Source: Gammaproteobacteria bacterium (GTDB lineage: Bacteria > Pseudomonadota > Gammaproteobacteria > GCA-001735895). Taken from it: DNA of 36,562 nt. Below, piece after piece: positions 9,547 through 35,329 of this stretch. Below the pieces are notes generated by a model that saw only the letters and a list, made by a program, of their open reading frames with translations, searched no databases and was not told the origin of the DNA. Within the stretch, counting starts at the first letter, position 1; the number at the start of each line of letters is the position of its first letter. A program made the translations under genes and the position numbers. The stretch lies in contig JAAEMR010000157.1 in NCBI GenBank assembly GCA_024225395.1, positions 1-36,562 on the forward strand, in the 5' to 3' direction.

Positions 9547-9584
9547 TTCACGAATACTTTTTTGTTCCTTCACATGATCTTCAC
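9547..9584 (+). promoter_or_regulatory. Tandem TTCAC half-sites upstream of the SOUL gene
   Basis: TTCAC at 9547, 9569 and 9580: spacings of 22 and 11 bases, so exact multiples of one helical turn (the skipped position at 9558 is TTTTT). The last copy ends 51 bases before the start codon. The same grid stands before four other genes in this window, including the response regulator. Immediately downstream is a perfect palindrome AGGTAA-TGTC-TTACCT (9585-9600) and then a possible -10 (TATATT, ~9612). Proposed binding site of the OmpR-type regulator encoded at 12000. Confidence 0.7.
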
Positions 9585-9635
9585 AGGTAATGTCTTACCT
9601 TAAAGCTTCATTATATTTCAACAGGTATTCATACA

Positions 9636-11466: not shown

Positions 11467-11915
11467 ACGACAACTACTGAATTTCGTTGATAAAATCAGC
11501 TCATATCCTCAGCCTCCCTTCATCTTTCGCGACCCGCGATATGACCTGATAAATTAAAACCGACTCAGAGAACTTTCCAGCCAAAACACTTTTACCAGTA
11601 ACATTCATTTGTTAAATGTTGCTAATATTTATCCAGCGGCCTGTCGGACTCAGGATTAATCTACCCCGCTACGGCTACTGCATTACTCACGGCTTTGACT
11701 CCTGTATCGCGCTGCCTTTAGCATCCATGCAGTCGTAACCTTGAGCATCCATAGGCTAGTGTGGTAAAGCTATTTAAGCAGAAAATCTATTTTTTTAGAG
11801 ATTTGATTTCTGCTAAATATCGAAATAGCTGTGTAAATTAGCTAGCAGTGATTATGTAAAAGTATTTAAATATATCAGGCACCAATCAAGTAGCATTTGT
11901 ACAACTACATAAAAT
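11467..11915. other. Gene-free stretch before the two-component operon
   Basis: No ORF is supported. It contains a hairpin with the outer stem AGCAGAAA (11777-11784) and TTTCTGCT (11807-11814) enclosing an A/T-rich partly paired loop, and a single TTGTACA at 11897-11903 that lacks a second copy. The regulatory TTCAC array follows immediately. Confidence 0.45.
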
Positions 11916-11953
11916 TTCACTATAAATTGATGCCAGTTTCACACTAATTTCAC
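11916..11953 (+). promoter_or_regulatory. Tandem TTCAC half-sites upstream of the response regulator gene
   Basis: TTCAC at 11916, 11938 and 11949, i.e. offsets 0, 22 and 33, exactly as before the SOUL gene; the position at offset 11 is TTGAT. The last copy continues as TTCACAGGT, nine bases identical to the SOUL site. It ends 46 bases before the response regulator ATG. This predicts autoregulation by the encoded OmpR-type protein. Confidence 0.72.
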
Positions 11954-11999
11954 AGGTTTGGGATTAATCTACAGATATTTAAGGAATTTCTAAAGCACT

Positions 12000-12698
12000 A
12001 TGCCAACACAATCCAGTCCAACCATTCTTTTTATCGAAGATCATCAGGATATTGCCGAAATGGTCGTCGATTATTTGGAAAATAAAGGCTTTGCCGTAGA
12101 TTATGCAGGCGACGGAATTACAGGTTTACACCTCGCTGTCACTAATTCCTATGACGCCATCATACTGGATCTAATGTTACCGGGTATTGACGGCCTTGAG
12201 ATCTGTCATAAAGTCAGGAAAGAGGCGAAAAACGATACCCCGATAATCATGCTAACGGCCAGGGATACGTTGGAAGATAAAATTTCAGGCCTGGAACGCG
12301 GTGCTGATGATTACCTGGTGAAACCCTTTGCAATTCAGGAACTGGAAGTCCGGGTCAGGGCTTTAATCCGTCGTCATCAGGGACAGGTAGCAGCAGAAAT
12401 TCTTAAAATAGCCGACTTAACGCTGGATACCTCGACTTTATCGGTAACCAGAAATAATCAGTCACTGACTTTAACCCCTATAGGCCTGAAAATTTTGACC
12501 ACGTTAATGCGCGCCTCACCTTCCGTGGTTAGCCGAAGTGATCTGGAGCGACAGGTGTGGGGACATGTCCTACCCGACAGCGATACCCTGAGAAGCCATT
12601 TATACAATTTACGCAAAATAATAGATAAACCTTTCCCCAATCAACTGCTGCAAACCCTACAGGGCAGTGGCTACAAGATCATCGACCCCAATGGCTAA
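12000..12698 (+). CDS. OmpR/PhoB-family response regulator
   Basis: A 232-residue DNA-binding response regulator. The receiver domain (1-~120) has the acidic pair Glu13-Asp14, phospho-acceptor Asp57 (AIILDLMLPG), Thr86 (IIMLTARD) and Lys108 (LVKPF). Residues ~135-230 are a winged-helix domain (TLTPIGLKILTTLM, RSDLERQVWG, LRSHLYNLRKIID, LQGSGYKI). Proteins of this family bind direct repeats about one helical turn apart, which is the pattern found before this gene and four others here. Its last eight bases overlap the kinase gene start, so the pair is translationally coupled. Stimulus unknown; not assignable to a named system. Confidence 0.95.
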   Translation: MPTQSSPTILFIEDHQDIAEMVVDYLENKGFAVDYAGDGITGLHLAVTNSYDAIILDLMLPGIDGLEICHKVRKEAKNDTPIIMLTARDTLEDKISGLERGADDYLVKPFAIQELEVRVRALIRRHQGQVAAEILKIADLTLDTSTLSVTRNNQSLTLTPIGLKILTTLMRASPSVVSRSDLERQVWGHVLPDSDTLRSHLYNLRKIIDKPFPNQLLQTLQGSGYKIIDPNG

Positions 12699-13983
12699 AT
12701 CAAACAGACTGATCAGGAAAATAAACCGTGCATTTCTATTACAAGCGGGACTCATCAGTGTTACCGCTATTCTCAGTATTTTAATTGCTAATAAAGTGAT
12801 CGATGAAATACTGATTAAGAATGCGATACAACAGGAATCCGATTATTTCTGGAAAAATTATCAACGAAATAATCAGTTCAACCTTCCGGATACTATGAAC
12901 CTCACTGGTTACCTGAATAAACACGATATCAACAACATCGATATTGCAAAAATTCCACAACAACCCGGATTTTATGAATTCGCAAAAAAGGATATAACTC
13001 TGGTACTGTATATTTCCATGCAACAAAACCAGACGCTTTATCTAATTTATAACCGCGGACAGGTCGATGCATTGGCGGCATTTTATGGTTTGTTTCCACT
13101 GTCCGTGGTGTTAATCGTGCTGTATTTAGCAACCTGGGTAACCTATCGATATAGTCGTAGAACCCTGTCTCCCGTCATACGACTGGCGGAACAGGTGAAT
13201 AAAATTAACTTTAACTCGATTGATTTATCACTCTTAAAACAGAACCCGATAGATATCGATTCTGGTGATGATATCCAAGTGCTTTTCGATGCCATTTTAC
13301 ACCTGGGTGAAAGGCTGAAATCATATGTAGCCCGCGAACGTAATTTTACGCGTGATGCCAGTCACGAATTACGCAGCCCTTTAACGGTCATTAATATAGC
13401 TGCAGACATGTTACTGGAAGAACCTACAATTTCAATAATTGCTAAAAAAAATCTACATCGTATAAAACGTGCCATTGTCGATATGGAGGAACTCACCGAA
13501 GCGTTTCTGTTACTGGCAAGGGAAACGGACAGTGCTTTAACCAAGGAACAGGTTTGTATCAACGATGTGCTGAGAGAAGAAATTGAACGTTCCACACTGC
13601 TAAAAAAGAATAAGGATATCAGCATCAACTTACTGTTAAACAATAAACTGTATACGCAGGCATCGGACAAGGTTCTATCCGTGTTATTTGGCAACCTGAT
13701 TCGAAATGCCATTCTGTACACAGATCAGGGGCAGGTTGATATCAGCATCGATAAACAAAGTGTCATTATCAGTGACAGTGGCCAGGGTATAGAGCAACAT
13801 AAAGTTAAAGAAATATTCGAGCCCTTTGTACGCGGCAAAAATAACAATAGCCACGGGCATGGTGTTGGCCTGACTATAGTAAAAAGGTTATCTGATCGTT
13901 TTAAATGGCCTATCAGAATAGATAGTTCGCCTCAACAGGGTACAACTGTAGTGGTTGAATTTCCTGTCTCAAAAATGGAATGA
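12691..13983 (+). CDS. Membrane sensor histidine kinase, partner of the upstream regulator
   Basis: A 430-residue orthodox kinase. A transmembrane helix at ~15-34, a periplasmic region of ~95 residues with no recognised fold, and a second helix at ~131-150 precede the linker. HisKA contains the phosphorylated His225 in FTRDASHELRSPLTV. The ATPase domain has the N box NLIRNAILYT, G1 ISDSGQGIE, F box FEPFVRG and G2 GHGVGLTIVKRL. The ATG at 12691 (ATGGCTAA overlapping the regulator stop) is preferred over an in-frame ATG at 12667. The periplasmic domain implies an envelope-side signal. It would phosphorylate the adjacent OmpR-type protein. Confidence 0.93.
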   Translation: MAKSNRLIRKINRAFLLQAGLISVTAILSILIANKVIDEILIKNAIQQESDYFWKNYQRNNQFNLPDTMNLTGYLNKHDINNIDIAKIPQQPGFYEFAKKDITLVLYISMQQNQTLYLIYNRGQVDALAAFYGLFPLSVVLIVLYLATWVTYRYSRRTLSPVIRLAEQVNKINFNSIDLSLLKQNPIDIDSGDDIQVLFDAILHLGERLKSYVARERNFTRDASHELRSPLTVINIAADMLLEEPTISIIAKKNLHRIKRAIVDMEELTEAFLLLARETDSALTKEQVCINDVLREEIERSTLLKKNKDISINLLLNNKLYTQASDKVLSVLFGNLIRNAILYTDQGQVDISIDKQSVIISDSGQGIEQHKVKEIFEPFVRGKNNNSHGHGVGLTIVKRLSDRFKWPIRIDSSPQQGTTVVVEFPVSKME

Positions 13984-14322: not shown

Positions 14323-14360
14323 GTGACGGGAGTGTTAATACGACATGAAGTTTTTGTGAA
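14323..14360 (-). promoter_or_regulatory. Tandem TTCAC-type array upstream of the 54-residue gene
   Basis: Read on the minus strand: TTCAC, TTCAT, TTAAC, GTCAC, each starting exactly 11 bases after the previous (5' ends at 14360, 14349, 14338, 14327). The third unit TTAAC is the same variant found third in the array of the lipid operon. The array ends 55 bases before the start codon. A CCCGT/ACGGG inverted repeat overlaps its end. On the plus strand toward folE only one perfect TTCAC (14376) is seen, with weak TTTAT and TTGAC at +11 and +22. Confidence 0.6.
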
Positions 14361-17008: not shown

Positions 17009-18283
17009 TTACCAGGTATGCACCGGTTCACGTCGGCAAGCGGGTTTTGTAAGTAGCATCTGTACAGTTCCTATATCACGTTCGATAAATGCACCTTCGC
17101 AATAACATAAATAATACTCCCACATGCGGATAAACGATTCAGAGTAGCCGGCAGACCTGACTTCATCAATGCGCTGAAAGAAACGCTCCTTCCAGTGCGC
17201 CAGTGTTTTAGCATAATGCGGACCAATATCATCCAGGTGAAACAGTTTCATATCAGTGACTGTACAGATGGATTGTGACATAGCCGTTATCGAGGGTAAG
17301 AAGCCACCGGGGAAAATGAACTTCTTAATATAATCTACATCTTTTAGTGCTGTCGCATAAAGTTGGTCAGTTATAGTAATCGACTGCAATAACATCATGC
17401 CATTGGGTTTCAATAAAGAGCTGCATTTATCGAAGTAGGTATTCATGTATTGATGCCCGATAGCTTCGATCATTTCAATAGAAACCAGCTTATCGTATTG
17501 CCCGTCAAGATCACGGTAATCTTCAAACAGCAGGGTAACCTGTGATTCAAGACCAGCTTCCTCTACCCGCTGTTTAGCCATTTCGTACTGTTCTCGTGAA
17601 ATAGTCGTCGTGGTCACCGAACAGCCATAGTGTTTTGCAGCATGTATCGCAAAACCACCCCAACCGGTACCGATTTCCAGCAGTTGGTCACCCGGTTTCA
17701 GTTGAAGCTTCTGGCAGATTCTATCCATTTTAGCGACTGCGGCACTATTTAAGTCCATATCAGGTTTTGCATAATAAGCGCAGGAGTACATCATGGTCGG
17801 ATCCAGGAAAAGTTCAAATAAATCATTACCCAGATCATAATGTGCACTAATATTGCGTCGACTGCCTTTTCGTGTATTGCGGCTAAGCCAGTGAAGTATT
17901 TTATGCAGTGGAGCTTTTAAACGAGTCAAACTGTTATCCATCTGATCCAGTACATGGCGGTTACGTAAAAAAATGCGAACCAGCCCGAGTAGATTATGAC
18001 AACTCCAGCTACCCTTAATATAAGCTTCGCCTGAACCAGTGCTACCTCCAAATGCAACATCACTCCACACACTGGGATGATTTACCTCGATATGTACACG
18101 TACCGGGAAGTCATCACTATACGAACCGAAATAAATTTCTTCACCGTTTTCACGAAAAACTATTTCCCCGAATTGAATTTTTGAAAACTGATTGATGACC
18201 AGTTTACGCGAGACTCGATCGAGCCAGAATGATGGAAGCCGTGCCTGTGTAGATTGCACGAGTGGATTTATCGTCGTTTTCAT
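17009..18283 (-). CDS. Cyclopropane-fatty-acid-synthase-like methyltransferase (CFA/UfaM type)
   Basis: A 424-residue SAM-dependent enzyme acting on unsaturated phospholipid acyl chains at the membrane. Residues ~1-130 are the N-terminal lipid-interacting domain; HYDLGNDLFELFLDPTMMYSC and LEIGTGWGGFAIHAA (SAM site) open the catalytic domain; VSIEMIEAIGHQY and FIFPGGFLPS complete the CFA signature. As last gene of the eight-gene operon, directly overlapping DUF1365 by four bases, it matches the gene order of operons in which such an enzyme works with DUF1365 and an FAD oxidoreductase. Product could be cyclopropane, methylated or furan-type fatty acids; sequence alone does not decide. Confidence 0.9.
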   Translation of the reverse strand: MKTTINPLVQSTQARLPSFWLDRVSRKLVINQFSKIQFGEIVFRENGEEIYFGSYSDDFPVRVHIEVNHPSVWSDVAFGGSTGSGEAYIKGSWSCHNLLGLVRIFLRNRHVLDQMDNSLTRLKAPLHKILHWLSRNTRKGSRRNISAHYDLGNDLFELFLDPTMMYSCAYYAKPDMDLNSAAVAKMDRICQKLQLKPGDQLLEIGTGWGGFAIHAAKHYGCSVTTTTISREQYEMAKQRVEEAGLESQVTLLFEDYRDLDGQYDKLVSIEMIEAIGHQYMNTYFDKCSSLLKPNGMMLLQSITITDQLYATALKDVDYIKKFIFPGGFLPSITAMSQSICTVTDMKLFHLDDIGPHYAKTLAHWKERFFQRIDEVRSAGYSESFIRMWEYYLCYCEGAFIERDIGTVQMLLTKPACRREPVHTW

Positions 18284-19080
18284 TGTTTATTCACCGATTT
18301 AGGTGCCTCGCTATTTTCTGCATAAGAATAAAAGGGAATTTTCTTTAACCATAATCTGAGTGCTTCAAAATAAATTCCACCAACCACTTTTAACGTCATC
18401 AGTGGAAAGTGTGTCAACACGCTGGCCAGCGTGGCAGAATTGATCGGTAATTTTTTAAAGGTCAGCGTCGCATCGAACAATTTTTCACCCTGTTGATAAT
18501 TCTGCATATGTATATTCAACTTTTCACCGGGTACAGAAAAAGTCCAGTCATAATCTATATCCATCGGCATAAAAGGAGACACATGGAATTCTTTTTTGCG
18601 CTGAAATTTCAGGTTCTTTCTTCCAGTAGACTGATTTGCCGTTAGCGGAGCACTGTCATAATCACTCAACACATACAGATGCTGTTCGCCCCAGGGTGTG
18701 TTATTAACCTCGCAAACTATAGTTTCAAGTTTTTTATCTTCAGCATCGAAGCAGTAATAAAAACTCACCGGGTTAAAACCATAACCCAGATAACGCAGGT
18801 GCGTGAGCAAACGGATGGGGCCTTCAGGTCGCCGACCCGTATACTCCTGGATGCGATCTTTAACCTCCTCAAGCAGTGAATTCTGTGGATCACCCAGGTG
18901 ATCTTTACGTCTGTACGAGGCCAGGTTAAAGCGCTCCGTTGACCACAACCAGAAAGGTTTGAATAAATCCGGTAACTCCTGCAAATCAAGATACATCATG
19001 AACAGGCCATAGCTAAATTCATGCTGCCCTGGCGCAAAGCGTCTATGCCTAACTGGCCCTTTGTAAATACAACTTTTCAT
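18280..19080 (-). CDS. DUF1365 protein
   Basis: A 266-residue DUF1365 protein. Landmarks: KSCIYKGPVRHRRFAPGQHEFSYGLFMMYLDL at the start, RRKDHLG, RLLTHLRYLGYGFNPVSFYYCFD, VCEVNNTPWGEQHLYVL and KEFHVSPFMPMDIDYDW. The ATG at 19080 is chosen because the domain begins there; the frame stays open upstream into the oxidoreductase gene, which it overlaps by 32 bases. DUF1365 genes are almost always found with CFA-like methyltransferases and FAD-dependent oxidoreductases and are thought to act in lipid modification; the reaction is undefined. Confidence 0.92.
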   Translation of the reverse strand: MKSCIYKGPVRHRRFAPGQHEFSYGLFMMYLDLQELPDLFKPFWLWSTERFNLASYRRKDHLGDPQNSLLEEVKDRIQEYTGRRPEGPIRLLTHLRYLGYGFNPVSFYYCFDAEDKKLETIVCEVNNTPWGEQHLYVLSDYDSAPLTANQSTGRKNLKFQRKKEFHVSPFMPMDIDYDWTFSVPGEKLNIHMQNYQQGEKLFDATLTFKKLPINSATLASVLTHFPLMTLKVVGGIYFEALRLWLKKIPFYSYAENSEAPKSVNKQ

Positions 19081-20338
19081 TGTCTCGTTGTTTAAGCTCT
19101 TGTTGTTCAAAATGTTTAACCGCATTGAGTGCACTGACAACCCCGTCTTCATGAAATCCATTGCGCCAGTAGGCACCACAAAAATAGGTTCTGTTAACAC
19201 CATTAATCTCGGCCTGACGTTGTTGTGCGGCTACACTGTCGATGGTATAAAGCGGATGATCATAATTAAAACGATGAATTATTTTAGACTTGGCCACTTC
19301 GGCACTATTATTCAGCGTAACACAAAGTGTTTTACTCGACTGATGGCCCTGCAAGATATTCATGTTATAGGTCAAAGCCGCCTGTGGTTGATGACGATTA
19401 AGTAAATGATAATTCCAGGCCGCCCAGGCCAGTCTTTTTTTCGGCAATAGAGTTTCATCGGTATGCAAAATCGCTTCGTTCTGCTGATAGCGTATAGCAC
19501 CCAGCACTTCTTTTTCAGCTTGACTGGCATCCGTTAGCATGTTCAATGCCTGATCACTGTGACTGGCAATAAAAACCGAATCGAATCGCTGAACTTTCTG
19601 ATCATGCACTTTAATTTCAACATATTCAGCAGTCCGTTTTACCGATTCTATTTTACTGTTCAAACGGATGTTATTTTTGAAGCCTGAGATCAGTGGTTTG
19701 ATGTATTGTTTCGATCCACCTTTTATAACAAACCAGCGAGGTCTGTTTTGCACATTTAATAGTCCATGGTTATAAAAAAATCGAATAAAAAAGCGTGCCG
19801 GAAATTGTTGCATTTTAACTGGATCGGTAGACCAGATAGCGGCCCCCATCGGTATAATGTAATTGTGAATAAAGTATTCACTGTAGTTATTTTGCAGTAA
19901 GTAATCACCCAGCCCGATTTCAGCCTGCCCATCCTGCATGTCTTTCAGGGCTTCTTTATTGAAACGCAAAATATCGCGTATCATGCGATGGAATGAGGGC
20001 TTAAAAAGGTTAGACCGTTGAGCAAACAACGTGTTCAAATTATGTCCATTATATTCCAGCCCGTAACGTTCACTCCTGACACTAAAACTCATTTCAGTTT
20101 CATGGGTCTCTACCTTCAACTCATCCAGTAAACTAATAAAATGTGGATAGGTTCTTTCGTTGTAAACGATAAAACCGGTATCCACTGCAAAGTGTTTTCC
20201 ATCGAGTTCAATATCATGAGTATGGGTATGGCCACCTATATAATCATTCGCTTCAAACAACGTGACATCATGTTGTTTATTCAACTTATATGCGGCGACA
20301 TTACCCGATATACCACTACCGATAACTGCAATTTTCAT
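19049..20338 (-). CDS. FAD-dependent oxidoreductase (amine-oxidase/desaturase-like)
   Basis: A 429-residue flavoprotein. The dinucleotide fold IAVIGSGISGNVAAYKL begins at residue 3, followed by LFEANDYIGGHTHTH, VDTGFIVYNERTYPHF and, near the end, YDHPLYTIDS and RTYFCGAYWRNGFHEDGVVSALN. This is the NAD/FAD-binding oxidoreductase type that precedes DUF1365 and CFA-like genes in light/singlet-oxygen lipid operons. It presumably oxidises or desaturates modified acyl chains. Start overlaps the upstream lipocalin stop by four bases (ATGA). Confidence 0.92.
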   Translation of the reverse strand: MKIAVIGSGISGNVAAYKLNKQHDVTLFEANDYIGGHTHTHDIELDGKHFAVDTGFIVYNERTYPHFISLLDELKVETHETEMSFSVRSERYGLEYNGHNLNTLFAQRSNLFKPSFHRMIRDILRFNKEALKDMQDGQAEIGLGDYLLQNNYSEYFIHNYIIPMGAAIWSTDPVKMQQFPARFFIRFFYNHGLLNVQNRPRWFVIKGGSKQYIKPLISGFKNNIRLNSKIESVKRTAEYVEIKVHDQKVQRFDSVFIASHSDQALNMLTDASQAEKEVLGAIRYQQNEAILHTDETLLPKKRLAWAAWNYHLLNRHQPQAALTYNMNILQGHQSSKTLCVTLNNSAEVAKSKIIHRFNYDHPLYTIDSVAAQQRQAEINGVNRTYFCGAYWRNGFHEDGVVSALNAVKHFEQQELKQRDNEKLYLQRAS

Positions 20339-20889
20339 AATTCTCCAGATGCTTCTTTAGAAATGATTTTATGTAATGGCTGTTGTAATTTGCTTACATC
20401 GTAGCCAAGCCCTGCCACTATTTTTTTATACCGCGCTAACTGCTCATCACTTATCTGTGGACTACGGCTCATGATCCAGACATAGTCTCGAGCCTGCCTG
20501 GAGATAATGGTGTTTTGATAATTACTATCAAGATACACAATTCGATAATCGGCCTTAAAAGGCCAGATAAACTGCATCCCCCACAATGCATTGCTTTGAG
20601 TGTCTTTTACATACCCGACAGGATGGTATTTTTTAACTGGACCATCAAGTGCTCCCTTGTTGAAGGTAAAGGTAGTCGCTATGCTTCCGTCTTCCTGTAG
20701 CCTGTAATTTTCTACAGGATTAAAAGCATTTTTTTCGATAAATGTCGGGATACTGGCAACCACGTACCAGTCCCCCATGAAACGATCAAGCTCAACCCGA
20801 CTGACTGTTTGCATCGGTGCATAACTGACGCAACCAGCGGTCACTATCAGAACGCTTAACAATACCAATTTTAAAAGTGACTGAGTCAT
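20335..20889 (-). CDS. Blc-like outer-membrane lipocalin (lipoprotein)
   Basis: A 184-residue lipoprotein with lipobox VTAGC near residue 19, then the lipocalin signature FMGDWYVVASIPTF, the YRIVYLDSNYQ strand and DYVWIMSRSPQISDEQLARY at the C-terminal helix. Bacterial lipocalins of this type bind lysophospholipids or fatty acids. It sits inside the lipid-modification operon, 13 bases after the DUF6134-like gene. It is one of two lipocalins in this window; the other follows trpB. Confidence 0.93.
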   Translation of the reverse strand: MTQSLLKLVLLSVLIVTAGCVSYAPMQTVSRVELDRFMGDWYVVASIPTFIEKNAFNPVENYRLQEDGSIATTFTFNKGALDGPVKKYHPVGYVKDTQSNALWGMQFIWPFKADYRIVYLDSNYQNTIISRQARDYVWIMSRSPQISDEQLARYKKIVAGLGYDVSKLQQPLHKIISKEASGEL

Positions 20890-20902
20890 TTGATATTCAA
20901 TA

Positions 20903-21616
20903 TTAGAAATTTACCGTCTGAGGGTAATAACTAAGCTGGTACCCTCCTTCGGTTTCACTCTGTAACGCCAGCCAGTCCATGTCAGTGGAATACCACAGAT
21001 CAATATTCTTATCTTTTAACAGCAGGCGGTATTTAAATGCAGGAATATTCTGACCCTCAAATTGCAAAACTGACTTTCCTAAATCCCGCAACTCGACCTG
21101 CTCCATTTCTCCGCTCTGGGTATTTAACAATCGCTCGGCTTTTAATAACTCCAGATCCCAATAGGCAAAACTTCTGACACAACCATCCAGCGATTGCTCA
21201 CCGGCATGTGTGCGAATAGTAAAACCAGTAGTATCTGAGATTTTCTGGATGAACAGATTTTCACCGTTATTATTGGTGGAGGACTGAATTTCTGATAAAC
21301 AGGAACCGACCCAGGTTTCCTCGGTCTGGTGCTGATAACGAAAAGCAGTGAAGAATAAAAACTTTACTATAAAATCTGCTTCTACACTGACCTGTTTAAC
21401 TTGCTGTCGAGTGTTTAGACTGACATTATGGTAGCCAATTTCTTTTTCATCCAGAAACACCCGAAACTGCCAGCTAGTTTGTGGCTGCAGGGTCAATTCT
21501 GCAGCATTCACTACGCTGCTCAGCAATATAACTGACAACCCGAACCAGGCAGGAAAACTAATAAAAAGTAACTGTTTAAGCAACAATGAGTAAAAATTAT
21601 TAATCCTTTTGTTCAT
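20903..21616 (-). CDS. Exported DUF6134-like protein
   Basis: A 237-residue protein with a signal peptide (hydrophobic stretch ~15-38 ending VNAAELTL) and an all-beta body (WQFRVFLDEKEIGYHNVSL, VEADFIVKFLFFTAFRYQHQ, TEETWVGSCLSEIQSSTNNNG, FAYWDLELL, YRLLLKDKNIDLWYSTD). This pattern fits the DUF6134/DUF3108-like periplasmic proteins found in DUF1295-DUF2878-CFA operons; the family name is from memory. Periplasmic location suggests lipid or isoprenoid handling. Overlaps the DUF1295 gene by four bases. Confidence 0.8.
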   Translation of the reverse strand: MNKRINNFYSLLLKQLLFISFPAWFGLSVILLSSVVNAAELTLQPQTSWQFRVFLDEKEIGYHNVSLNTRQQVKQVSVEADFIVKFLFFTAFRYQHQTEETWVGSCLSEIQSSTNNNGENLFIQKISDTTGFTIRTHAGEQSLDGCVRSFAYWDLELLKAERLLNTQSGEMEQVELRDLGKSVLQFEGQNIPAFKYRLLLKDKNIDLWYSTDMDWLALQSETEGGYQLSYYPQTVNF

Positions 21617-22413
21617 GATTGATGATCTCCTAATGGAATAGACTGTTGAGTTTTTTTAAACCATGGAAAGAAACTATTAGTTGTTGAGATATAGTGCTGA
21701 TAAGCCGGACGTCTCTGCCCGATATCTTTTTCCAGCATCACTACACCGGACACTTTTAATAATAGAAAGCTCATTAATAACGGGGCGTAGACTGTCCACC
21801 ACCCGCCCGCCGGAATGGCAAAGAGAAAGTAAGCCCACCACATACAAAATTCTCCAAAGTAATTAGGATGGCGGGTATAGGCCCACAGTCCGGAATCCAG
21901 CACTTTGTTGTGGTTCATAGTAAAGCGTTTAAATGCGACTAATTGATAATCGCCCAGAGCTTCAAAGGTAAAACCGATAATCCACAAAATCATCGCAATA
22001 CCGTCCAGCCAGCTTAATGGAGTTGATGAAGATAATGCTATTAATAGTGGAATCGAGATGATCCAGGCCAGAAAGCCCTGCAAACCAAAAATAATATATA
22101 GACTTTTAAACTTGAATCCAGGTTCGTTATTACTGCGAATTTGCCGATAGCGACGATCTTCTTCATGGCCCCAGTTGCGTAGCGTTAAATGTACCGATAA
22201 ACGCAGTGACCAGAGAGCAACCAGGCAAAAAATTATCCACTCTCTAAATTCCGGAGAGTTGTTAAAAAACAGGTAAACCATGGCTGCCATCAGGAACATC
22301 AATGACCACAGGCTATCGACGCTATTAACATTTTGTTTTTTTACGCTGTACAGCCAGGTAATAAAACCCATGATGACTATAAATGGCAACGCCCAACTAT
22401 AAATTTCCAGCAT
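21613..22413 (-). CDS. DUF1295 membrane protein (steroid 5-alpha-reductase-like fold)
   Basis: A 266-residue integral membrane protein with about six helices. The C-terminal GLWAYTRHPNYFGEFCMWWAYFLFA and VVMLEKDIGQRRPAYQHYISTTNSFFPWF are the signature of DUF1295/steroid-reductase and isoprenylcysteine methyltransferase-like proteins, which bind NADPH or SAM through that region. I choose the ATG at 22413, because GGAGGT lies a short distance upstream, rather than the adjacent GTG. It probably reduces a double bond in a lipid product of the operon. It overlaps DUF2878 by 17 bases. Confidence 0.92.
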   Translation of the reverse strand: MLEIYSWALPFIVIMGFITWLYSVKKQNVNSVDSLWSLMFLMAAMVYLFFNNSPEFREWIIFCLVALWSLRLSVHLTLRNWGHEEDRRYRQIRSNNEPGFKFKSLYIIFGLQGFLAWIISIPLLIALSSSTPLSWLDGIAMILWIIGFTFEALGDYQLVAFKRFTMNHNKVLDSGLWAYTRHPNYFGEFCMWWAYFLFAIPAGGWWTVYAPLLMSFLLLKVSGVVMLEKDIGQRRPAYQHYISTTNSFFPWFKKTQQSIPLGDHQS

Positions 22414-22963
22414 CACAGACCTCCAGTTTTATATGTTGCTGGTTAAATCCGTCGAAACGTGTAGACAAAATCATTAACAAAGGCATGATCAGCGCCCAGC
22501 CAAATGCCAGCGACAGCATCGCCTGATAGATATTACTAAAATCAACGACTCCTATCTTGAACCCTGCGTAATAGGCAAGTGGTCCACCTGCCAGTCCAAA
22601 CAGGCTGGCAATCAACAGACGCTGCTTCAACCATTTAAGGGAAACATTCAAGGTACTTGCGAATAATGCCCACATTGCAATAATCCAGTATGGTGCCAGG
22701 CTCTCATGAATCTGGCCATTGTCGTAACGCAATAAACCACTCCAGGTCAGCAGGCTATCCCACAAGAACCCAATGAATAACACCAGCAGAATAAGTTTAA
22801 ATTCTTTATCCGGCTGGCCCGACCTGGACAAATGAAAGCCAAGAATTAACATGACGATTAGTAACCCTAACCACGGCAATTGATAAGCTGCACCCAGCAC
22901 ACAACTAAACCAGCCCAGTTGAAACAGCAAAAAATTAACTAACAGTGAGGACATAGCAGGCAT
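22397..22963 (-). CDS. DUF2878 membrane protein
   Basis: A 188-residue membrane protein with five or six helices (for example ~5-40, 55-75, 90-112, 116-140, 150-172), with the family motifs GFLWDSLLTWSGLLRY, APYWIIAMWALFASTLNVSL and LAGGPLAYYAGFKIG. DUF2878 proteins of unknown function occur in CFA-linked operons. The start ATG shares one base with the upstream methyltransferase stop (TAATG), showing translational coupling. Confidence 0.9.
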   Translation of the reverse strand: MPAMSSLLVNFLLFQLGWFSCVLGAAYQLPWLGLLIVMLILGFHLSRSGQPDKEFKLILLVLFIGFLWDSLLTWSGLLRYDNGQIHESLAPYWIIAMWALFASTLNVSLKWLKQRLLIASLFGLAGGPLAYYAGFKIGVVDFSNIYQAMLSLAFGWALIMPLLMILSTRFDGFNQQHIKLEVCDAGNL

Positions 22964-24006
22964 TAGCGTTTACCGAACAGGTAGTGGCTTACCCACCATT
23001 GCTGACCCTTGTCGTATCCAAACAGTTCAGCACAGGCCATAAAAAAAAGTCTCCAGCGCTGCCACCACACGGCGGCAAAATCCTGACCGTAAGTTTCTTC
23101 AAACAGGGGCCATAGTTTTGCTTTATTTGAATCCATCTTTTGCAACCAGGCATTACTGGTTTTTTCATAATGCCTGCCATCCCAGCGCCAGTGGTTTTCA
23201 ATCTTTAAATGATCCTGAAAATTCAACGATAAACTGTCACTCGGCATCATACCGCCACTGAAAAAATGTCGACTCATCCAGTCATTGGACTGTTTATCTT
23301 CAAACAGGTAAGGAGTAGCCCTGTTGACAAAGATGTGTTTAAAAAATTTTCCACCAGGCTTTAACCAGTTACTGATTCTCTGGTACAGCTCTGAGTAATT
23401 GCGCATATGTTCAAACATTTCAACCGAGACGATCCGGTCGTACTGCTCAGTCGTATTAAAATCATTCATGTCGGCAGTAACAACTTCGATATTCGATAGA
23501 TTCGATTCATGCGCAAGTTGTTGAATAAAATCACCCTGTGATAACGAATTGGATACCGCAGTAATTCGACTTTGTGGATATTGCTCAGCCATCCACAGGG
23601 TTAGAGATCCCCAGCCACAACCCAGTTCCAGAATAGACTGGCCATTTTTCAGTTCGGCATGTTGAGCCGTTTGTCGCAGCGCATTAATTTCGGACTGATC
23701 CAGTGTTTGACAATTGTCATTCCACAACCCGCAACTGTATTTCAGGCGATCGCCAAGAACCGTGCGGAAAAAATCTGCAGGTACTTCATAATGCTGCTCG
23801 TTGGCTTTGTCCGCCTGTAGCGCTACGGGTGCTGCATTCATCATGCGAATAAACGACTGCTCTTGCTGCGCCATAGTTTCACAATCCAGCGCATTGATTT
23901 CCTGCAGTCGTCCTTTTAACAGCAGGCGAATACCCTGCCGTAACATGGCGTCAGGAAGGATCCCGCGCTCGGTTAACTGGTAGGCAAGATTTTGATTTAG
24001 TTTCAT
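22963..24006 (-). CDS. SAM-dependent CFA-family methyltransferase, first gene of the lipid operon
   Basis: A 347-residue enzyme of the COG2230-type family with HYEVPADFFRTVLGDRLKYSCGLWND, the SAM-site LELGCGWGSLTLWMAEQ, VSVEMFEHMRNY and KHIFVNRATPYLF. It is shorter than the second copy at 17009 and lacks that protein's long N-terminal lipid domain, resembling plant-type 'cyclopropane synthase' relatives. The two paralogues flank the operon, suggesting distinct steps. It is the promoter-proximal gene, 63 bases downstream of a four-unit TTCAC array. Confidence 0.9.
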   Translation of the reverse strand: MKLNQNLAYQLTERGILPDAMLRQGIRLLLKGRLQEINALDCETMAQQEQSFIRMMNAAPVALQADKANEQHYEVPADFFRTVLGDRLKYSCGLWNDNCQTLDQSEINALRQTAQHAELKNGQSILELGCGWGSLTLWMAEQYPQSRITAVSNSLSQGDFIQQLAHESNLSNIEVVTADMNDFNTTEQYDRIVSVEMFEHMRNYSELYQRISNWLKPGGKFFKHIFVNRATPYLFEDKQSNDWMSRHFFSGGMMPSDSLSLNFQDHLKIENHWRWDGRHYEKTSNAWLQKMDSNKAKLWPLFEETYGQDFAAVWWQRWRLFFMACAELFGYDKGQQWWVSHYLFGKR

Positions 24007-24069
24007 TATATTGTTCCGGCAATTGTGTTTAGATTAATGTTTAACTGTTATTAATTTACTACTCGACAT

Positions 24070-24107
24070 GTGAAACAGCTGTTAAATTGATGTGAAGATT
24101 GCGTGAA
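24070..24107 (-). promoter_or_regulatory. Four-unit TTCAC array driving the eight-gene lipid operon
   Basis: On the minus strand the units are TTCAC, TTCAC, TTAAC and TTCAC, with 5' ends at 24107, 24096, 24085 and 24074: exact 11-base steps. The six-base spacers differ, so only the half-sites and phase are conserved. It ends 63 bases before the methyltransferase start codon. The same grid occurs upstream of the response regulator, SOUL, small-protein and DUF4397 genes. Confidence 0.75.
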
Positions 24108-25779: not shown

Positions 25780-25839
25780 GTTTCCTCCGAAATTATTTCG
25801 AGTTGGGTTAGTGTCGAGGCGAAGATTACTTCGGAGGTT

Positions 25840-25877
25840 GTGAAGTGATAGTTTAATTCAGGTGAAAATTGTGTGAA
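25840..25877 (-). promoter_or_regulatory. TTCAC array upstream of the DUF4397 gene
   Basis: Minus-strand units TTCAC, TTCAC, TAAAC and TTCAC begin at 25877, 25866, 25855 and 25844, in 11-base steps. As in the lipid operon array, the third unit is the variant. It ends 60 bases before the start codon. Confidence 0.75.
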
Positions 25878-29052: not shown

Positions 29053-29080
29053 TTGTACAGAATATTAATACTTGTACAAT
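29053..29080 (+). promoter_or_regulatory. Paired TTGTACA element with embedded promoter of the MerR-B12 regulator
   Basis: TTGTACA at 29053-29059 and 29072-29078, separated by 12 bases as at 8301. TTGTAC (29053-29058) and TACAAT (29075-29080) form a -35/-10 pair with a 16-base spacer toward the regulator gene. On the minus strand the same segment overlaps a TTGACG...TATTCT promoter for the leftward genes. Repressor binding to both repeats would block both directions; this is inferred from layout and MerR/CarH family behaviour. Confidence 0.78.
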
Positions 29081-29086
29081 ACGTCA

Positions 29087-30088
29087 ATGAAAATAAATCC
29101 TTTAATGAACCAGAATCCACAAAAATTGAACACAGAAATGGCTACCGAGCGTTTTCCTATACGCATTCTTTCGGAAAAAACTAATATTGGCACATCGACT
29201 CTGAGAGCCTGGGAAAGACGTTATGGCCTGCTACATCCGGCCAGAACCCCGAAAGGGCACCGGCTTTACAATGTACAGGATGTGCAGCATGTACTGAAAA
29301 TTGTGGACCTGCTAAACGACGGGCATTCACTACCGGCTATTGCGGAAATGCTCTCGGTCAATCAAACAGGCAGTGAAAATGATGAGGCGATTTCGAACGT
29401 AGCGCCTTCCTTCGAGATGAGTTCAATCTGGCAGGATTTCATGCAGTCAACTTTAGACGCAGTTAGTGACTTTAATATCGAGCGAATCGATGCAATTTAC
29501 AACGAAGCTTCTTCGTTGTATCCGCTGGATATGGTGACAGATCGCCTGATTCAGCCCACACTCACCCGGCTGGGTGAAGCCTGGAAGCAACATCCGGAAA
29601 GAGGCATCGCCGAGGAACATTTTTACAGTAGCTGGTTAAAGAACCGGCTCGGTGCTCGTTTTCATCATGCCTATACGAATGCCAGGGGAGCCCGCATCGT
29701 GTGTGCCTGTGCGCCCGGCAGCTACCATGAAACCGGGCTGATGTTATTTTCCCTGTCGGCACTCGCGCGTGGTTATAGAGTGCTTTACTTTGGTGCCGAT
29801 ATGCCGCTCAACCAGTTGCATTACATCACCCGACGATCAGCAGCAAAAGCAGTAGTGCTTTCCGTGTATGACCAGATGTCACCTGCGCAGAATACACAGT
29901 TAACCCAACTGGTGAGAGACCTCCCTACCCCGCTGTTCATCGGTGGAGCTGGACAGCTGGATGATAGCGCAGCTTTTGAAACGGCAGGAGGCATTCTGCT
30001 GGGTGCCAGTATATCGGTTGCATTACGTGTGTTCGAAAACCATATTCCGGTTTACCCTGAAAAGCGAGAAACTCCACGCAGCAAATAA
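29087..30088 (+). CDS. litR: MerR-family regulator with B12-binding domain (LitR/CarH-like photoreceptor)
   Basis: A 333-residue regulator. Residues ~24-90 are a MerR winged HTH (RILSEKTNIGTSTLRAWERRYGLLHPARTPKGHRLY). The middle is the helical cobalamin cap with GEAWKQHPERGIAEEHFYSSWL, and ~residues 205-315 are a B12-binding Rossmann domain with CACAPGSYHETGLMLF (the HxxG motif) and YFGADMPL. Relatives use adenosylcobalamin to repress target genes in the dark and release them in light. The start is uncertain: ATG at 29087 would be almost leaderless with the promoter above; ATGs at 29105 and 29138 are in frame. The spacing between Trp and Glu-His in the cap is one residue longer than in CarH. 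A photolyase remnant follows. Confidence 0.9.
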   Translation: MKINPLMNQNPQKLNTEMATERFPIRILSEKTNIGTSTLRAWERRYGLLHPARTPKGHRLYNVQDVQHVLKIVDLLNDGHSLPAIAEMLSVNQTGSENDEAISNVAPSFEMSSIWQDFMQSTLDAVSDFNIERIDAIYNEASSLYPLDMVTDRLIQPTLTRLGEAWKQHPERGIAEEHFYSSWLKNRLGARFHHAYTNARGARIVCACAPGSYHETGLMLFSLSALARGYRVLYFGADMPLNQLHYITRRSAAKAVVLSVYDQMSPAQNTQLTQLVRDLPTPLFIGGAGQLDDSAAFETAGGILLGASISVALRVFENHIPVYPEKRETPRSK

Positions 30089-35274: not shown

Positions 35275-35284
35275 CGCGTCTCGC

Positions 35285-35329
35285 TTTATACAAATTTATA
35301 CAAATTTATACAAATTTATACAAATTTAA
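35285..35329. repeat. Four 10-bp tandem repeats with phased A/T tracts
   Basis: TTTATACAAA is repeated four times without change, placing an AAATTT tract every 10 bases. Tracts at helical phase bend DNA intrinsically. It lies ~105 bases before the sensor gene at 35435, just right of the transposable element end. Confidence 0.8.

Follow-up and report, generated by a model that had tools for sequence, protein, structure and literature searches.

In Vibrio, Shewanella and Pseudomonas, the phr/cfa operon is controlled by LitR/PhrR or RpoE2-ChrR (PMC5241685, PMC4336711, PMC9758184), and RudS, LitR, hemH, folE and folM are genes of the light and singlet-oxygen regulons (PMC5241685, PMC4336711, PMC9758184, PMC11417400). 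The steps by which UfaM, UfaD and UfaO lead to furan fatty acids were worked out in Rhodobacter sphaeroides (PMC7380195). A DNA motif, TTCAC-N6-TTCAC, is known from two further systems: the OmpR-family regulator CreB/BlrA was proven on a site of this type (PMC3660660), and the boxes of ColR were footprinted in Pseudomonas putida, including a four-slot array at PP0900/colR (PMC2689224). Here we characterize a 36,562-nucleotide stretch from a Gammaproteobacteria bacterium (contig JAAEMR010000157.1 of assembly GCA_024225395.1; hereafter the window), which encodes an eight-gene lipid operon and, near it, a two-component system. The operon is of the photo-oxidative lipid type found in Vibrio, Shewanella and Pseudomonas, with a UfaM/UfaD/UfaO-like core. 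Operon type and motif were already known; what appears to be new is that several families pair the lipid operon with a dedicated two-component system, which has a defined promoter code and a ChrR/LitR-like regulon. We found no report of two-component control of this operon among 5.4 million openly accessible papers (subscription journals lay outside the search).

A ColRS/CreBC-like dedicated two-component system probably activates the operon, and we consider it likely that the neighbouring pair is the main switch, acting through a TTCAC array by PhoB-like activation. The features concerned are the following.

12000..12698, plus strand: OmpR-family response regulator (Response_reg, Trans_reg_C)
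12667..13983, plus strand: sensor histidine kinase (HisKA, HATPase_c) with a predicted small Cache/PDC-like periplasmic domain
24070..24107, minus strand: operon array, four TTCAC slots 11 bp apart matching at 5, 5, 4 and 5 of 5 positions; predicted response-regulator site
24053..24058, minus strand: operon −10, TAAATT, predicted sigma70 element 11 bp past the last TTCAC
11916..11953, plus strand: response-regulator array, upstream of the regulator gene; −10 TAATCT at 11965-11970
9547..9584, plus strand: SOUL array, preceding the SOUL gene (9636); −10 TACCTT at 9596-9601
25840..25877, minus strand: DUF4397 array, preceding the DUF4397 gene (25779); −10 TAATCT at 25823-25828

Four phased arrays occur in the real window and none in 30 shuffled windows; one of the four slots is usually degenerate. 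Across the 4.45-Mb genome, phased triple-TTCAC arrays number eight, with four inside the 36.6-kb window. Genome-wide statistics are pattern searches, and since the assembly is fragmented (265 contigs, 98.85% complete, 4.7% contamination estimate), a few array targets could be from foreign contigs. The four arrays beyond the window belong to a folX(FolB-family)-folE-folM-DCC-SDR operon, two 410-bp cassettes and one gene for an 84-aa peptide. A further candidate in the window, before folE (14459) at 14323..14360 on the minus strand, scores 17/20 with one perfect slot and the opposite orientation, and was left uncertain.

In PhoB-type class II promoters, the activator site stands in for the −35 element, and the arrays share this geometry. 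Among 21 arrays drawn from this genome and its relatives in several families, TANNNT (A2 and T6 of TATAAT) lies exactly 11 bp past the last TTCAC in 18, with other offsets accounting for 0-4 of 21 each; because the arrays were selected by TTCAC alone, the −10 at a fixed offset is independent evidence. The earlier note, made from the letters of this DNA, had the operon promoter carrying a TTCAC array in place of any recognisable sigma-factor element; the array stands, and a sigma70 −10 is present at a fixed distance from it. It is very unlikely that the array serves repression by the two-component system, with a separate activator required. ColR does repress some box-bearing promoters, for example PP0737/pagL (PMC2689224); here, however, the box lies over the −35 region and upstream of the −10 in the same 18 of 21 arrays, as expected for a PhoB-like activator, and no good −35 remains without it. 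PP0737 itself, a ColR target tried as the P. putida member of this operon, was ruled out because it is pagL.

Autoregulation is suggested by the array at the gene of the regulator itself. Of 46 regulator orthologues, 28 are preceded by TTCAC-N6-TTCAC with at most one mismatch, in every case on the sense strand; shuffles yield about 1% per region. In Xanthomonadaceae, the orthologous pair keeps this site before the regulator, and none of those examined stands beside such an operon. A search with the kinase places the pair next to FAD-DUF1365-CFA (cyclopropane fatty acid synthase) operons in Thiotrichaceae, Wenzhouxiangella, Alloalcanivorax, Acinetobacter and several uncultured lineages. In 369 genomes forming an even sample of the Gammaproteobacteria, the kinase is found in 48 and operon gene 1 in 50; 14 have both, and in seven, representing seven families, the two lie at most 10 kb apart.

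We then asked how the site is distributed among operons linked to the pair (within 6 kb of it, plus two assigned by hand) and unlinked ones. A first four-slot scan, covering 450 bp from the first recognised gene, missed arrays before unrecognised first genes and was redone with 1.5 kb. Exact TTCAC-N6-TTCAC occurs within 1.5 kb upstream of 11 of 22 linked and 3 of 47 unlinked operons (P=8e-5). Arrays with a score of at least 17 stand at 7 of 22 and 1 of 47, respectively (P=0.001); these Fisher P values overstate independence, because the loci are related by descent, and serve as guides. One unlinked match, L226, is a piece of a contig that ends shortly before gene 1, and its genus also includes a linked genome. 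The earlier note had tied the operon to a two-component system, and the common array, the autoregulatory array and the genomic linkage in other families bear this out.

Several points weigh against this assignment, in addition to the descent that inflates the P values. About a dozen OmpR-type regulators are encoded in the genome, and another of them could read TTCAC. Regulator binding, activation, the signal and the lipid product are predictions, and the UfaM likeness of gene 8 is indirect. The two operons placed in the linked set by hand, G007 (L123) and L155, have the pair on another contig or just past the distance limit, and both the linkage threshold and the 1.5-kb search region were picked during analysis. 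Matches to the −10 consensus at the arrays are often weak, averaging 3.9 of 6. Of the linked operons, half lack the exact two-slot site by the test used, and no clear array is seen in those of distant lineages (Acinetobacter, L061); the site therefore diverges, or control differs, there.

The identity of the motif with the cre/blr-tag TTCACnnnnnnTTCAC and the ColR box raises the alternative that a different OmpR-family regulator, CreB-like or ColR-like, binds the arrays and that the neighbouring pair is merely one target. Other regulators of the genome do outscore the neighbouring one against CreB; none passes the CreB cutoff, however, and CreD is absent from the genome. Moreover, the site before the regulator's own gene is kept across families, and site and operon linkage track the neighbouring pair. 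We regard this alternative as unlikely. Membership in CreBC/BlrAB was rejected for the pair itself: the motif fits but the proteins fail, the regulator being 33% identical to CreB, under the cutoff, with no CreD. The arrays here also differ from the CreBC/BlrAB sites in having four slots (PMC3660660). ColRS of P. putida shares with the system here an OmpR-type regulator (with predicted TTCAC-N6-TTCAC boxes), an EnvZ-like kinase, 11-bp TTCAC direct repeats and membrane-lipid targets (PMC2689224, PMC4074579). It differs in three respects: ColS has a metal-binding ExxE, a motif not found in residues 1-160 of the present kinase; ColR is reported not to be autoregulated, whereas autoregulation is putative here; and the predicted targets here are genes for pterins and for modifying acyl chains rather than lipid A.

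The periplasmic domain of the kinase appears to resemble Cache/PDC sensors. Its AlphaFold 2 model (pLDDT 85) aligns with the dCache domain of Mlp24 (VIA Z 10.5, rmsd 2.1, 94 residues), with no Foldseek E under 0.001; Foldseek with the whole kinase returned kinase cores only. We propose that the membrane kinase, through its small Cache/PDC-like periplasmic sensor, would phosphorylate the OmpR-family regulator, which would bind the 11-bp TTCAC array head-to-tail, covering the −35 region. The bound regulator would then recruit sigma70 RNA polymerase to the −10 lying 11 bp downstream, as in PhoB-like class II activation, and may also activate its own gene, SOUL, DUF4397, the folX-folE-folM operon and the small membrane peptides.

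Homologous operons in Pseudomonas and Vibrio are controlled by LitR-type regulators (PMC9758184, PMC5241685), and a LitR-like gene is present in the window together with its sites.

29087..30088, plus strand: LitR/CarH-like MerR-B12 regulator (MerR_1, B12-binding_2), 5 kb upstream of the operon
29053..29078, plus strand: LitR double element at litR, TTGTACA-N12-TTGTACA, one of two in the genome
8301..8326, plus strand: LitR double element in the hemH-RudS/CbiX intergenic region, the other of the two

These raise the possibility that the operon answers to light through LitR, the TTCAC arrays being secondary; the proximity of litR, whose own promoter contains two TTGTACA repeats, and a single TTGTACA at 11897 in the response-regulator promoter speak for it, as does the relative G007, in which the interval from hemH to the response regulator contains a LitR double site next to a TTCAC array. 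On the other hand, the genome-wide search for TTGTAYA-N10-12-TTGTAYA returned only the two sites listed and no LitR double element at the operon promoter, which bears the phased array with its fixed −10. LitR as the operon's regulator is accordingly improbable in our estimate; it may feed into the two-component system, and nothing places it at the operon. With double LitR sites only at litR and hemH-RudS/CbiX, and arrays elsewhere, the regulon is therefore split between two regulators. The earlier note's remark that a TTGTACA element is missing holds for a LitR double site at the operon; for the wider setting it does not, with litR and its repeats 5 kb upstream. Control by ChrR was ruled out, because the genome, 98.85% complete, has no ChrR anti-sigma factor (TIGR02451).

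The operon consists of eight tightly packed minus-strand genes running from 24006 down to 17009, and a Pfam search bears out all eight family assignments.

22963..24006, minus strand: gene 1 (mt1), 347 aa, class I S-adenosylmethionine methyltransferase of the CMAS superfamily (Pfam CMAS, 1.3e-41)
22397..22963, minus strand: gene 2, DUF2878 membrane protein (PF11086, 7.9e-46)
21613..22416, minus strand: gene 3, DUF1295 membrane protein, Steroid_dh/ICMT-like (PF06966, 7.6e-69)
20903..21616, minus strand: gene 4, DUF6134 protein with an N-terminal hydrophobic segment (PF19630, 4.7e-41)
20335..20889, minus strand: gene 5, Blc-type lipocalin lipoprotein (PF08212, 2e-38; under the NCBIfam Blc cutoff)
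19049..20338, minus strand: gene 6, FAD oxidoreductase, flavin amine-oxidase-like, UfaD-like (PF01593, 1.3e-20)
18280..19080, minus strand: gene 7, DUF1365, UfaO-like (PF07103, 3.4e-84)
17009..18283, minus strand: gene 8 (cfa8), 424 aa, CMAS methyltransferase, UfaM-like (PF02353, 5.6e-93)

Gene 7 probably starts at 19080, rather than at the first ATG of the mechanical open reading frame (19203). The seven junctions comprise six overlaps (1, 20, 4, 4, about 32 and 4 bp) and one gap of 13 bp, in agreement with the tight coupling that the earlier note had read from seven overlaps or near-overlaps; positions and Pfam also agree with its eight-gene operon containing two CFA-like methyltransferases. 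Its view of DUF2878, DUF1295, DUF6134 and the lipocalin as additions specific to this operon was mistaken, as all four are standard in such operons of many Gammaproteobacteria.

The operon does open and close with unlike methyltransferases, as had been claimed. Gene 1, which is without the CFA N-terminal domain, finds its best solved-structure match in coclaurine N-methyltransferase (CNMT; 6gkv, 1.1e-72, residues 12-346); the corresponding values are 1e-72 against the plant enzyme and 6e-30 against E. coli Cfa. It can be aligned to the plant coclaurine/pavine N-methyltransferases over its full length and differs from them in being bacterial and in sitting in a lipid operon. Similarity thus makes gene 1 CNMT-like, and N-methylation of an amine is putative. 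Gene 8, by comparison, aligns to CFA synthase along its whole length. Genes 6-8 overlap and co-encode the FAD protein, DUF1365 and the CMAS methyltransferase, the combination also seen in RSP1091-1087/UfaM-UfaD-UfaO of R. sphaeroides, with which the operon shares a link to photo-oxidative regulators (PMC7380195). Judged through Qingshengfaniella proteins of a sigma-ChrR locus, as a stand-in for those of R. sphaeroides, gene 6 is 38% identical to the FAD protein (54% to that of Salinivibrio) and gene 7 is 30% identical to the DUF1365 protein. Compared with RSP1091-1087, genes 1-5 (CNMT-like, DUF2878, DUF1295, DUF6134 and lipocalin) are in the same operon here, there is no MFS gene, and a two-component system is predicted in control rather than ECF-ChrR.

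We consider it unlikely that the operon simply shields membranes with cyclopropane fatty acids made by gene 8 as an ordinary cyclopropane synthase. The place of gene 8 in the CMAS family (E-value 5.6e-93) would allow this, and the induced VC1122 of V. cholerae was interpreted as a cyclopropane synthase (PMC5241685). Yet the score of gene 8 is under the NCBIfam Cfa cutoffs, and at the bicarbonate-site residues of E. coli Cfa (Cys139, Glu239, His266, Ile268 and Tyr317), gene 8 has C, E, Q, I and Y. Gln replaces His266 in every aligned operon-type copy save L214, which is probably a canonical cfa gene of its own located close to the operon; in many copies, Ser or Ala takes the place of Cys139. 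DUF1365 and the FAD protein, furthermore, share the operon with gene 8.

From the gene families, the operon would function in the chemical modification of membrane fatty acids, a type usually under light or singlet-oxygen control; a multi-step lipid product is a reasonable inference. Genes 6-8 would carry out UfaM/UfaD/UfaO-type methylation, desaturation and oxygenation of unsaturated phospholipid acyl chains to give methylated or furan fatty acids; the CNMT-like second methyltransferase, the two membrane proteins, the DUF6134 protein (predicted to be exported) and the lipocalin may act on or move the lipid product.

The surrounding genes and the other array targets extend the resemblance to known regulons. 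The window also encodes a RudS-like DUF523/DUF1722 protein, hemH, a CbiX-like gene, SOUL, folE, dihydromonapterin reductase, CIA30, DUF4397 and a second lipocalin. With the phr/cfa systems of Vibrio, Shewanella and Pseudomonas (PMC5241685, PMC4336711, PMC9758184), the one described here has in common RudS, LitR, photolyase, FAD, DUF1365, CFA and DUF2878, as well as folE, folM, hemH and glutathione peroxidase; the first gene and the gene order differ, the promoter combines a TTCAC array and a sigma70 −10, and light-regulator sites are kept only at litR and hemH-RudS/CbiX. Array targets that match known photo-oxidative regulon genes are folX-folE and, in relatives, a glutathione peroxidase gene near arrays (G003, G007 and G196; compare PgpD of the Shewanella RpoE2 regulon). 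In these relatives, arrays or operon promoters lie near the peroxidase gene, which has a probable signal peptide (L054:5911, L123:5476-6045 and L257:7488, respectively), and also before a fasciclin-domain lipoprotein gene adjoining the same two-component genes.

The earlier note had proposed comparing the regulator type beside the operon across genomes and had seen kinship to ECF/ChrR- and LitR-controlled operons. The kinship holds up: the Ufa-type core matches, and the operon stands beside this pair, a LitR-like gene (unlinked operons L223-225, L228, L230, L232 and L234) or an ECF sigma gene (L125, L219, L220, L231 and L233), with some adjoining none of them. Three unrelated regulators (LitR, ECF-ChrR and this two-component system) appear to serve the same membrane-protecting operon in different Gammaproteobacteria, a clear example of one regulator taking the place of another. 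Named mobilizable Acinetobacter plasmids (A. schindleri p1AsACE, A. pseudolwoffii) bear the pair beside the operon, which suggests horizontal spread as a plasmid module; on these MOBP plasmids (L271, L272), the module comprises operon, fatty acid desaturase and kinase/regulator pair, with a photolyase gene in A. schindleri.

The two-component system, with its promoter code, opens a direct way to the signal that the operon answers to in genomes without LitR and ChrR, and it provides defined targets for proteins of unknown function (DUF2878, DUF1295, DUF6134, the CNMT-like methyltransferase and 44-aa peptides). More broadly, and at somewhat less than even confidence, we suggest a third independent class of photo-oxidative/membrane-damage regulator: this would be a dedicated two-component system, in some cases plasmid-borne and mobilizable, whose Cache-like sensing of a periplasmic membrane-damage signal would drive, from a PhoB-like array promoter, an ECF-ChrR/LitR-equivalent regulon (acyl-chain remodelling, pterins, heme-binding proteins), the operon lipid being extra-methylated by a CNMT-like enzyme so far undescribed in bacteria.

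The two 410-bp cassettes of this genome (C177:79156, with L120:7157 and L117:1501; C236:44104, with L122:8105 and L118:1501) are 90% identical, and each consists of a phased TTCAC array, a −10-like element, a 44-aa peptide and then an inverted repeat. The peptide, a predicted single helix (MSKMIVSKQTVF..QDLRLI.IYCSMLLLTPLVV), is an unannotated small membrane protein with the shared promoter type. The 84-aa predicted membrane peptide, which is without known family, follows the array at C159:4147-4173 (L121). At C253:40604 (L288:1501), TTCAC-N6-TTCAC-N11-TATAAG precedes a 193-aa protein, SCO1/SenC-like by eye only and a possible further target. Photolyase is encoded in a single copy on another contig (C164), without array or LitR double site. 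Within the window, a collagen-like GXX repeat protein of 236 aa is encoded at 886-1596, and a tandem 10-bp repeat, TTTGTATAAA, at 35280-35325 on the minus strand resembles LitR half-sites in tandem.

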